In this document: positions 12,789 through 15,665 of the stretch, in pieces
Layout of the letters: the number at the start of each line of letters is the position of its first letter
Numbering within the stretch: the stretch's first letter is position 1
From: Rhodoplanes sp. Z2-YC6860
Lineage (GTDB): Bacteria; Pseudomonadota; Alphaproteobacteria; Rhizobiales; Xanthobacteraceae
Length of the DNA stretch: 64,000 bases
Direction of reading: 5' to 3'
Assembly (NCBI RefSeq): GCF_001579845.1
Contig: NZ_CP007440.1
Location: 2,174,001 to 2,238,000 of the forward strand
Position numbers and translations under genes: made by a program
The notes under the pieces: model-generated
Told to the model about the DNA's origin: nothing
Seen by the model: the letters and a program-made list of their open reading frames with translations, nothing else
Databases searched by the model: none

Positions 12789-12886
12789 GCGACATTTGCT
12801 CGATTGACGCAACACCGAATGGCTCTGTTGAGCCACATTCCGCCGCGATTATTCCTCAGTGGCGTTTTGCGGATGGAAGATTTTCA

Positions 12887-13366
12887 GTGTTGCGATGGCT
12901 TCTTCGGTTGCTCGTTGGACTTGTCGCGATCGTGTTGCTTGCTGTCGTGGCCGGCCCGTGGTTGCTGTACGAATTTGGCCTCTCGAAGATCGACGGGCGT
13001 CCCGGCCACGCCGTCAGCACCGCCGTCGCTCCCGAAGACGTCGAGGCGTTGATCCGAACGCTCCGAATATCGCGGCCGATCACGATCGATCGCTTGTCAC
13101 CGTATTCCTACATCTGGACGCTGGCGCGTAGTGATGGGCGAATGCGTGATCATGGAGTGCGCATTGCTTGGCGGATCGCCAGGTCGCACAACGCGGATCA
13201 TCTCGCCAACCATTCGTTCTGGCATCTGTCGGGAGCGGCGTTGACAATCTGGCTAACCCGCAACTGGACGACGGACGAACTCGTTGCGAAGGCCGTCGAA
13301 TTGGAAAAGGCGACGGCCAAAGCGAGGGCAGCTGCGGCTTTTGAACGTAAGCAGTCCGGCCGTTGA
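12887..13366 (+). CDS. Small membrane-anchored protein of unknown function
   Basis: A 159-residue protein starting at GTG 12887. Residues 2-28 (LRWLLRLLVGLVAIVLLAVV) form one membrane helix or an uncleaved signal anchor. The rest is soluble, with the segments ISRPITIDRLSPYSYIW, SFWHLSGAALTIWL and a charged C-terminal helix rich in Ala, Glu and Lys (ELEKATAKARAAAAFERK). I do not recognise the family. Codon use fits the neighbours. Confidence 0.6.
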   Translation: MLRWLLRLLVGLVAIVLLAVVAGPWLLYEFGLSKIDGRPGHAVSTAVAPEDVEALIRTLRISRPITIDRLSPYSYIWTLARSDGRMRDHGVRIAWRIARSHNADHLANHSFWHLSGAALTIWLTRNWTTDELVAKAVELEKATAKARAAAAFERKQSGR

Positions 13367-13385
13367 AGTCATACATGATGTGCTA

Positions 13386-13414
13386 TTGACGATCATATTC
13401 GTTCCTGATAGGTT
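13386..13414 (+). promoter_or_regulatory. Candidate sigma-70 promoter before the hairpin-rich block
   Basis: TTGACG at 13386-13391 and TAGGTT at 13409-13414 are 17 bases apart. The -35 is good, the -10 is weak. It would place transcription start near 13421, at the edge of the structured block. Confidence 0.35.
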
Positions 13415-13420
13415 CTAATT

Positions 13421-13975
13421 TGTCCCTGCTCACTGAGGGCGTCTTCCGGAGACGTTCGGCTGACGGAGCTGGGTGCGGCGTCCTGCGGACGGGCCTCGTA
13501 AGCTCGGCTCCGGGAGGCGTCTGGGTTCCGTTCGCTCTACTACGAGGGCCGCCCGTCAGGGCTCGTCCGGGATGGAATGAACGGCGGTGAAAACCGCCGG
13601 AATTGCAGGAGGGATACTCCTGGTCCACCCGGTGATACGGACCACACGCCCATAATCGCTGCGGTGGAGCGCCGGAAGGCGCGCCTGCCCTCGCAAGGGC
13701 GGGCGGGGTGCCTTCGCAAAGGTGCCCCAGTGATACCTGCGCCGTTTCGGCGCTCCGCCTCCCTCAGGGAGGCATGAAAGAACCCGGGCGCGGCCCGGAA
13801 AACCGACAGGGAAATCTGGTGGCCGCCGGCATGCGCTGCGCGGAGGAAAAATCTATGCACTCGTTCGTTATTCGGAACGATGGAGAAGAACAAGTGAGCC
13901 TTGTTCAGTCCCAGCGCATTCGATCGCGTATCATCGCGACCGGCGCAGCCCCGACAAGGCGGCACAAGTTTTTTT
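13421..13975 (+). ncRNA. Candidate large structured noncoding RNA
   Basis: No credible gene fits this 690-base gap, but it holds a dense run of stable hairpins: CGTCT/AGACG (13440-13454), CGGAGC/GCTCCG (13464-13512) enclosing CGTCC/GGACG, CGGCGGT-GAAA-ACCGCCG region (13582-13599), CAGGAG/CTCCTG (13606-13622), GGTCC/GGACC (13622-13643), GCGCC-GGAA-GGCGC (13669-13682), an 8-bp stem with CGCA loop (13684-13703), a 10-bp stem with CGCA loop and two wobbles (13705-13728), GCGCCG/CGGCGC (13739-13753), GCCTCCC/GGGAGGC (13757-13773), CCGGGC/GCCCGG (13784-13798), TCGTTC/GAACGA (13861-13880), GAACAAG/CTTGTTC (13888-13906). A run of seven T ends at 13975. The two GNRA-type loops exist only on the plus strand, which sets the strand. 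Confidence 0.55.
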
Positions 13976-13982
13976 CGACGGC

Positions 13983-14009
13983 TGTCGATTGGCGGCAGCC
14001 TCGCGCGTC
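13983..14009 (+). promoter_or_regulatory. Candidate ECF42-type promoter
   Basis: TGTCGA at 13983-13988 and CGTC at 14006-14009 are 17 bases apart, about 50 bases before the YciI-family start codon. TGTCGA in the -35 and CGA/TC-like -10 elements have been reported for ECF42 sigma factors, so this would let the sigma factor drive its own operon. Confidence 0.55.
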
Positions 14010-14058
14010 ATGGTGTCGACGGAGCACAAGCTTCGGTCACAACCAAGGGACCATCACC

Positions 14059-14406
14059 ATGCAATATCTCCTTCTGATCTACCGCGATGAAGCCAAGTTC
14101 CTGTCGGCCAGCAAGGCCGAGGCCGAGCAGATGACCGCGAGCTACATGGCCTATGCCGAGGCCATGAAGAAGGCCGGGGTGATCCGCGGCGGCGAGCGGC
14201 TGCGGCCGGTGACGGACGCGACCACGGTGCGGGTCGCCGGTGGCAAGACCAGCGTGCTCAACGGGCCCTATGCCGACACCAAGGAGCAGCTGGCCGGCTA
14301 CTTCATGATCGACGTGCCCGATCTCGATGCGGCGTTGAGCTGGGCCGCGCGTTGTCCCGGCGCGAGCCAGGGCGCGATGGAAGTCCGTCCGCTGTGGCCG
14401 ATGTAG
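14059..14406 (+). CDS. YciI-family (DGPF) protein
   Basis: A 115-residue single-domain protein of the YCII/DGPF fold: it starts MQYLLLIYRDEAKF and has the NGPYADTKEQLAGYFMIDV segment that corresponds to the family's DGPF region. AGGGA at 14046-14050 precedes ATG 14059. Its stop overlaps the start region of the ECF sigma factor gene. YciI/DGPF genes next to ECF42-group sigma factors are a known conserved pairing, often as targets of the sigma factor. Its biochemical function is not established. Confidence 0.88.
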   Translation: MQYLLLIYRDEAKFLSASKAEAEQMTASYMAYAEAMKKAGVIRGGERLRPVTDATTVRVAGGKTSVLNGPYADTKEQLAGYFMIDVPDLDAALSWAARCPGASQGAMEVRPLWPM

Positions 14407-15665
14407 CGCCAACGCCGAAAGGCGAACAGCCTGCCCGGGCCGCCGCCGAAATGGTGGCCCGGCAGAGCTACGGCAAGCTCGTGGCGTTTCTCGCGGCCCG
14501 CACCGGCGATGTCGCCGGCGCCGAAGACGCGCTGTCGGAGGCGTTTGCGTCAGCATTGGACGATTGGTCGGTCAACGGCGTGCCGCGGACGCCCGAAGCA
14601 TGGCTCCTGACCGCTGCACGCCGCAAGCTGATCGACGCCGGCCGGCGGCGACGGAGCGGCGATGATGCAGCGGATCATCTGCGGCTGATGGCCGACGAAA
14701 TGGAGGCCGTGGCGAACGAGACCGACATCCCGGACCGGCGCCTCGCTCTGATGTTCGCCTGTGCGCATCCGGCCATTGATCAAGGCATCCGCGCGCCGCT
14801 CATCCTTCAGACCATTCTCGGCTTCGACGCCGCGACCATCGCGTCGGCGTTCCTGGTCGCGCCGCAAACTATGGCGCAGCGCCTGGTTCGTGCCAAAAGC
14901 AAAATCAGGGAGGCCCGCATTCCGCTGCGGATTCCCGAACACGGGGAATTGCGCGAGCGCCTCGACACCGTGCTGGAGGCGATCTATGCGGCCTTCGCCG
15001 AGGGCTGGACCGATCCCGGCGGCACCGAAAGCCGCCGCCGCAATCTCGCCAGCGAAGGCATCTGGCTCGGCCGCCTCGTTGCGTCGCTGCTGCCAGACGA
15101 GCCCGAGGCGCTGGGCCTGCTCGCGCTGATGCTCTATGCGGAATCGCGCCGCGCGGCGCGGCGGGGCGCCGAGGGCGACTACGTGCCGCTCGGGCAGCAG
15201 GACACGGCGCTGTGGGACGTGCCGATGATCGAAGAGGCCGAGGCGCTGCTGCGCCGCGCGAGTGTTGGCGGCGACACCGGGCGCTATCAGCTCGAAGCCG
15301 CGGTGCAGTCGGCGCATCTGGTGCGGCGCTTGAGCGGCCGCGCCGATTGGGCGGCGATCGAAAGACTCTACGAGCTTCTGTTCGAGATCACGCATTCGCC
15401 GGTGGTGATGATCAACCGCGCGGTCGCGGCGGCCGAGTCGCGCGGCGCAGAGGCGGGCCTTGCCCTGCTCGACGGCCTCGACGGCGAGAAGGCGCTCGCC
15501 GAATACCAGCCGTATTGGGCGGCGCGTGCCGATCTTCTCTCGCGGCTCAACCGGCGCGCCGAAGCCAGTGAGGCCTATCAGCGCGCCATCGGGCTGGAAA
15601 CCGATCCCGCGGTCCGCCGCTTTCTGCAGGAGCGCCGCGGCGCCCGCTGCGGCAAGGCCAATTGA
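14394..15665 (+). CDS. ECF42-group RNA polymerase sigma factor with C-terminal extension
   Basis: About 423 residues, roughly twice the size of a simple ECF sigma factor. The N-terminal part holds sigma region 2 (AEDALSEAFASALDDW, then AWLLTAARRKLID) and region 4 (FLVAPQTMAQRLVRAKSKIRE). The long C-terminal part, ending in helical repeat-like sequence (RAEASEAYQRAIG), matches the extension that defines the ECF42 group and takes the place of an anti-sigma factor as a control element. I chose GTG 14394, which overlaps the YciI stop by 13 bases and has GGAAG upstream; the exact start is uncertain. The gene ends 2 bases from the stop of the convergent Bug gene. Confidence 0.88.
   Translation: MADVAPTPKGEQPARAAAEMVARQSYGKLVAFLAARTGDVAGAEDALSEAFASALDDWSVNGVPRTPEAWLLTAARRKLIDAGRRRRSGDDAADHLRLMADEMEAVANETDIPDRRLALMFACAHPAIDQGIRAPLILQTILGFDAATIASAFLVAPQTMAQRLVRAKSKIREARIPLRIPEHGELRERLDTVLEAIYAAFAEGWTDPGGTESRRRNLASEGIWLGRLVASLLPDEPEALGLLALMLYAESRRAARRGAEGDYVPLGQQDTALWDVPMIEEAEALLRRASVGGDTGRYQLEAAVQSAHLVRRLSGRADWAAIERLYELLFEITHSPVVMINRAVAAAESRGAEAGLALLDGLDGEKALAEYQPYWAARADLLSRLNRRAEASEAYQRAIGLETDPAVRRFLQERRGARCGKAN

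Follow-up and report, generated by a model that had tools for sequence, protein, structure and literature searches.

The window, by which we mean the whole 64,000-nucleotide stretch of Rhodoplanes sp. Z2-YC6860 DNA that was analysed, contains an intergenic block (positions 13386–13975) flanked upstream by a small open reading frame with no Pfam match and downstream (14059–15665) by a YciI-domain gene (PF03795), then a sigma factor gene with Sigma70_r2 and DUF6596 domains that we take to be ECF42-like; these Pfam matches bear out the YciI and sigma factor genes named in the first-pass annotation. That annotation, made from the letters alone, had proposed a candidate undescribed structured RNA with at least twelve hairpins. 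The minimum-energy fold of 13421–13850 (−239.5 kcal/mol) has nine hairpin loops and three further inverted repeats can be made out by eye in 13851–13975, such that a count of at least twelve is plausible. The + strand of 13421–13850 folds well below its dinucleotide shuffles (z −5.38, with none of 100 reaching an equal energy), and the reverse strand also folds better than shuffles (z −3.55). Direct reading confirms the −35/−10-like pair ahead of the block and the local hairpins with GAAA, GGAA and CGCA loops, although in the family fold GGAA falls within the P7 rod (Table 1) and does not close a hairpin. GTGATAC does occur twice (13632–13638 and 13730–13736) but is not conserved, the near-twin copy L019 having GTGAGAC at the second place, and the run of seven T residues given as the end of the block is present (13969–13975) but belongs, with everything past ~13850, to sequence outside the repeated family.

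Table 1. Features of the window copy, with the evidence on which each assignment is based.
Feature	Position	Strand	Basis
−35 element (TTGACG), sigma-70-like putative promoter of the RNA	13386–13391	+	Sequence; same position in LexA-class sister copies
Putative LexA-type box (GTTC-CTGATAG-GTTC), overlapping the −10 (TAGGTT, ~13409–13414)	13401–13415	+	Sequence; also in 12 of 36 other own copies
5′ domain, matched by covariance model R1	13421–13578	+	101.9 bits, E 4.3e-20 in the window; covariation
P1 (CCCTGCTC 13424–13431 / GAGCTGGG 13466–13473), closing the P2 hairpin	13424–13473	+	Covariation; R1 match
Core closed by long-range P3 (GCGGCG 13475–13480 / CGCTGC 13657–13662)	13475–13662	+	40-copy core alignment
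P3a, P4, P5, P6 and a GAAA-capped hairpin, inside P3	within 13475–13662	+	Inner helices read by homology in the window copy
3′ domain: P7 rod (GTGGAGCGCCG / CGGCGCTCCGC) with two inner hairpins	13664–13758	+	Pairing in 27 copies
P8 (CCTCCC-TCA-GGGAGG) and CCGGGC/GCCCGG hairpin	13757–13800	+	Near-twin comparison; minimum-energy fold
Tail without boxA, over which likeness to near-twin L019 fades	13801–13850	+	Comparison with L019

The block is repeated. A search of its own genome, a single contig of 8,193,889 bases, gave at least 50 matches, which were grouped into 40 loci, all 40 of which were retrieved. The repeated part corresponds to query positions 1–434 (up to 460 in one match); with more sensitive alignment some copies remain similar to ~474–480, and the similarity to near-twin L019 fades at ~13850. 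Most of the other own copies are full length, with ~63–93% identity to the window copy. R1, a covariance model built from the 5′ domain of 44 copies, the window copy among them, finds 52 matches in the 8.19-Mb chromosome, 50 of them at E ≤ 6.2e-14. The stretch from 13386 to ~13850 thus belongs to a family of RNA genes dispersed over the chromosome, with about 50 copies in its own genome; the family also has members in many genera. A single 16S rRNA match (L208) was seen in the 8.2-Mb own genome, against 52 matches of the structured RNA.

For comparative work, 197 copies were reduced to 130 full ones, among which are 36 of the 40 own loci (the window copy L018, its near-twin L019, L039 and L041 are left out, and fractions of own copies are given out of 36). 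A first fold used 108 of the 130 as a non-redundant set; alignment A2 has 44 rows (43 of 54 listed copies plus L018), the core set comprises 40 of 86 copies that passed a motif filter, and alignment A1 holds 27 hand-chosen copies. These row choices favour canonical copies, so the pairing figures that follow apply to canonical copies.

Over 44 copies and 38 pairs, 93.0% of 1648 cells of the 5′ domain are paired, compared with 41.9–49.5% in slid controls, and cells in which both partners have changed number 209, against 64.1 ± 8.5 in shuffles (none of 500 as high). Within this domain, helix P1 is paired in 97.2% of cells, with double changes in five of its ten pairs. The core enclosed by the two P3 strands shows 90.4% of 2290 cells paired (40 copies, 58 pairs; 36.7–47.1% when slid), a figure favoured by the core structure having been derived from the same alignment as its pairing test, and P7 is paired in 296 of 297 cells in 27 copies with seven double changes (33–60% when slid). 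The common architecture places P1 with P2 at the 5′ end, followed by P3 (GCGGCG/CGCCGC), which closes a junction of P3a, P4, P5 and P6, and then by the P7 rod and P8; P5 bears P5a and P5b, P6 bears two hairpins, and the junctions are elaborate, with conserved unpaired segments. In the A2 alignment G.U cells outnumber A.C cells by 247 to 36, an excess that identifies the + strand as the RNA strand.

Compensatory change in a common fold thus exceeds both shuffled and slid controls among the homologues collected, and we regard the family as nearly certain to be a genuine structured RNA. A scan of the window copy and 13 other loci against Rfam 15 (cmscan on window 12800–14600 at E ≤ 5, on seven loci at gathering scores and on seven loci, one shared, at E ≤ 2) gave no match at gathering score and only weak ones otherwise, and a known RNA family was rejected for the copies scanned. 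Absence of an Rfam match, compensatory change in a defined structure and promoter-like sequence at a fixed place together support the original proposal of an undescribed structured RNA. A coding gene was rejected, given single-base indels and compensatory changes among the copies and the lack of a Pfam match for the two − strand ORFs that overlap the block; the annotation's statement that no credible gene lies here holds for those two ORFs, to which this outcome is limited.

Beyond the own genome, blastn matches were obtained in 14 of 41 genomes (own plus 40 relatives) and, with own copy L033 as query, in at least 94 of 296 family genomes covering 25 of 47 genera (best two candidates per genome scored). 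R1 gave 7–20 matches in 11 of 14 chosen same-family genomes of 1–4 contigs and none in three of the 14 (G049, G022 and G256); matches in G080 were weak (best E 4.9e-7). In a set of 41 genomes from the order that includes the own one, the model scored in the own genome, G039 and G026. G039, from another family, has eight matches, and in two of its copies (L232 and L234) the core and 3′ domain are recognisable by eye with new stem sequences, the L232 promoter resembling by eye those of other genera; the one weak match in G026 was counted as false, no core, 3′ domain or promoter being visible by eye. A class-wide search (best eight candidates per genome scored, strict filters) returned only the own genome among 337. 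A DNA pattern searched in a named genome collection matched at least 120 stretches; of the 120 listed, the family profile recognises 117 at E ≤ 1e-5, in some cases only over part of their length at contig ends. The listed matches include Afipia, Tardiphaga, Pseudolabrys, Rhodoplanes, Pseudorhodoplanes and many less precisely named MAGs, as well as one MAG each under the names Bdellovibrio, Devosia and Rhizobium, possibly through misbinning. The same single pattern gave no match in IMG/VR, the window copy as query gave none in phages and L033 as query none in plasmids, and a phage, plasmid or viral origin was rejected on these single-query searches. The Rfam scan and these single-query searches gave neither of the matches that the annotation had named as counting against it, one to an Rfam family or one to a mobile element; the block does repeat, apparently as an RNA gene rather than as any mobile element known to us.

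Upstream of its fold the window copy carries GTTCCTGATAGGTTC, and L019 likewise has GTTC-N7-GTTC. This motif lies within 80 bases upstream in 12 of 36 own copies, compared with 15 of 7000 shuffled upstreams, and recA of the same genome has GAACATATTGCGAAC (GAAC-N7-GAAC), the same motif on the other strand. We take GTTC-N7-GTTC/GAAC-N7-GAAC to be the alphaproteobacterial LexA box; the window copy has this motif at its putative promoter (13401–13415), as recA does. A different promoter, class B (TTTGCAT..GCAAATCAC..TAGA), precedes 19 of the 36 own copies; four of the remainder have neither type and one was not anchored. Class B occurs at 30 places in the genome at ≤2 mismatches (a reversed control gave none); at 29 of these an R1 match follows ~35 bp downstream, and the thirtieth precedes L039. 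A class B regulon was rejected on this distribution, since every site belongs to an RNA copy and other genes yield no lead. L039 itself (G000:C1:2569200-2573200) is an own copy whose P2 loop holds an insertion, IS630/DDE-like by eye, that splits the copy.

Among the 94 copies from other genomes the LexA-type box has one probable chance match (L194); confinement of the box to own copies, this match apart, means that SOS control cannot be the general role of the family. The same 94 copies include 26 with a GGAATATA-TCC-like palindrome, 13 with GGGGAT..ATCCCC and ten with TTATCCCC, with one double call (LexA-type plus TTATCCCC) and 44 unclassified. Besides the LexA-type and class B promoters, at least three operator-like types (GGAATATA-TCC palindrome, GGGGATA..ATCCCC and TTATCCCCG) can be seen before the RNA in other genomes.

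At the other end of the gene, 22 of 36 own copies and 51 of 94 others have GCTGT[TC]TGA in their tail; removing duplicates leaves 22 and 48. Of the motif's 26 occurrences on both strands of the 40 own loci, 22 are at the tail position. Tail positions 9–18 are conserved at 1.1–2.0 bits in own copies (consensus CAATTGAATC) and 0.7–1.8 bits elsewhere, and most positions around this block are low in conservation, making it the best conserved part of the tail; positions 0–8 were imposed by the motif search, and tail conservation is to that extent circular. We take the motif to be boxA, the NusB/NusE(S10) site of rRNA leaders. The own 16S leader reads GGGCTGTTTGACAGGTGAATC and GGGCTGTTTGACAGGTGAATCGG, and rRNA leaders elsewhere read GGGCTGTTTGACAAGT (two further genomes) and GGTTGTTTGACAAGT (G089), without TGAATC. 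In these three genomes the rRNA leader and the tails agree only in a GTTTGA core, so the rRNA likeness is strongest in the own genome. The motif is absent from the window copy and from 14 of the 36 own copies examined. Partial circularity of the tail conservation and the lesser match of the three other leaders both weaken a reading in terms of Nus factors.

Comparison of copies with one another suggests how they evolve. L043, L044 and L045 are identical over more than 300 bases of the body but have different tails and slightly different promoters, L018 and L019 have near-identical bodies and diverged promoters, and the window copy is 96% alike to the L022 copy in query 269–434 while 73% alike overall. 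The copies are thus mosaics under concerted evolution, most simply by gene conversion, which near-identical pairs with different promoters and tails fit; L025 and L026, alike over the entire unit from the −35 to ~10 bases past boxA, count against a purely conversion-based view. No gene family recurs systematically beside the 40 own loci when their flanks are compared with each other (ORFs overlapping the RNA or tail set aside), although one flanking-ORF cluster spans nine of them, and a cis-regulatory leader was rejected for want of a widely recurring flanking family. Many Afipia copies have flanks common across species, mostly ~79–93% alike, and so occupy orthologous positions in related species, though at one site the RNA is present in some members of the genus and absent from others. 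One Afipia gap, bounded by reading frames that look to us like folC and trxA, was retrieved from ten of 12 searched genomes (G277 and G289 left out): four (G204, G089, G220, G050) have the RNA, in three (G110, G251, G196) the gap is short, and in three (G212, G186, G264) it holds other sequence without the RNA, by eye apparently a gene. Short sites thus exist in Afipia; exact junctions could not be set in them and no target duplication was definable.

We favour reading the family as a trans-acting structured RNA, possibly one that engages the Nus/antitermination machinery. Transcription would start at ~13421 and yield an RNA of ~430 nt (~500 nt in boxA copies) whose functional part would be the fold, and the copies would act redundantly in trans, kept alike by gene conversion as in rRNA genes. 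Until DNA damage, LexA would repress the window copy along with roughly one in three own copies; boxA would let the RNA bind the antitermination machinery (NusB/NusE(S10)), such that induced copies might titrate Nus factors, redirect them, or remain tethered to the polymerase. LexA-type promoters and boxA-like tails would in this way tie the RNA to DNA damage and transcription antitermination. The Nus step is the weakest, because the window copy and many others are without boxA, and it is countered by the position of boxA at the 3′ end rather than in a leader, where antitermination would act. No protein partner for the RNA was found. A Nus-linked role is one of several guesses, and what carries it is mainly the boxA-like tail seen in sister copies; the whole (autonomous non-coding RNA genes, trans-acting and Nus-linked) is offered as the best explanation only tentatively. 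There is a substantial chance, somewhat short of even, that the same family is instead a structural or catalytic large RNA (ribozyme, oligomer or protein scaffold) independent of Nus, its boxA-like tail serving as a processing or 3′-end signal; the intricacy of the junctions with their conserved unpaired segments, the retention by eye of core and 3′ stem with new stem sequences in L232 and L234 of another family, and the many copies that do without boxA all suit this alternative, whereas the boxA-like block being best conserved in the tail (positions 0–8 imposed by the search) does not, and any such activity is a candidate only.

Two further readings were weighed. The Afipia presence/absence pattern and the L025/L026 pair also fit a mobile unit, such as a non-autonomous SINE- or MITE-like element whose RNA is a mobility intermediate or promoter-bearing cargo; 52 matches in one genome, RNA in four and a short site in three of ten Afipia gaps, a defined left edge near the −35 and the likeness of L025 and L026 over the entire unit speak for such an element. 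We nevertheless think it rather unlikely: Afipia flanks are common across species and mostly ~79–93% alike, no terminal inverted repeats or target duplications were noticed by eye beside copies, single queries of phages, plasmids and viral contigs gave no match, and near-identical pairs elsewhere have unlike promoters and tails, as gene conversion would give. The 50 strong copies of the own genome are also over-dispersed (gap CV 0.59 versus 0.97 for random placement, none of 2000 random sets being as even, with a smallest gap of 40 kb), and in two of seven other genomes P is ~0.035 (for G148 and G187 the copy lists are incomplete, 14/17 and 16/17, and some genome lengths are rounded), which speaks for a chromosome-organising site acting as DNA. 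Spacing is not significant in the remaining five, G.U far exceeds A.C on the + strand and the class B promoter stands at a fixed distance, and we consider a DNA-level site very improbable. We also consider it unlikely that tens of evenly spread RNA genes form a new class that acts as a stress-switchable, genome-wide Nus decoy or tether, or as an organiser of the transcribing chromosome. Leading-strand bias was rejected in the own genome, where 31 of 400 random strand sets were as good on a grid coarser than that of the observed value, a difference favouring the latter, and of seven other genomes only G278 shows it (1/300).

To our knowledge, few bacterial RNA genes other than those for rRNA and tRNA would be as redundant as a conserved structured RNA of ~430–500 nt with about 50 genes. 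A search of the open-access journal literature found no description of this RNA or a similar one. ROOL, GOLLD and OLE are long, intricate, conserved bacterial RNAs whose role is unknown, and the family resembles them in being long, intricate and conserved; it differs in having no Rfam match in the copies scanned, in being shorter, in its tens of chromosomal copies and in giving no match in phages or IMG/VR to the queries tried here. HEARO/omega RNAs, the dispersed structured RNAs of IscB-TnpB-type elements, share dispersal and structure with it, but here Rfam gives no match and no gene family recurs systematically beside the 40 own copies. Many copies have a tail like the own 16S leader boxA, as in rRNA leader antitermination sites, yet the RNA concerned is not ribosomal and has it at its 3′ end, the window copy lacks it, and agreement is weaker in three other genomes. 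The E. coli naRNA4/REP325 nucleoid RNA likewise comes from a repeated chromosomal element; we know of no sequence or structure relation between it and this family.

REP elements are also intergenic and present in many copies, and those printed for Bradyrhizobium (Br-REP1/2) are palindromes of ~20–40 nt (PMC5082802). Our family is by contrast a ~430–500-nt fold with its own putative promoter, and REP-like hairpins only flank some copies. Two kinds of such hairpin (GTCGTCCCCGCG..CGCGGGGAC and GTCATTGCCGGGCTTGACCCGGCAAT) are often the immediate neighbours of the RNA genes, as in the flanks of L138, L141, L183, L092 and L043. The printed Br-REP2 palindrome resembles hairpins beside some copies and was seen in no copy's body. 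The same paper mentions, with data not shown there, that Br-REP2 is part of a larger repetitive element which also occurs in Nitrobacter, Oligotropha and Afipia (PMC5082802), and this element may overlap the RNA family described here. A structured RNA is in itself of a known kind; the newness of this one rests on the absent Rfam match together with its unusual combination of features.
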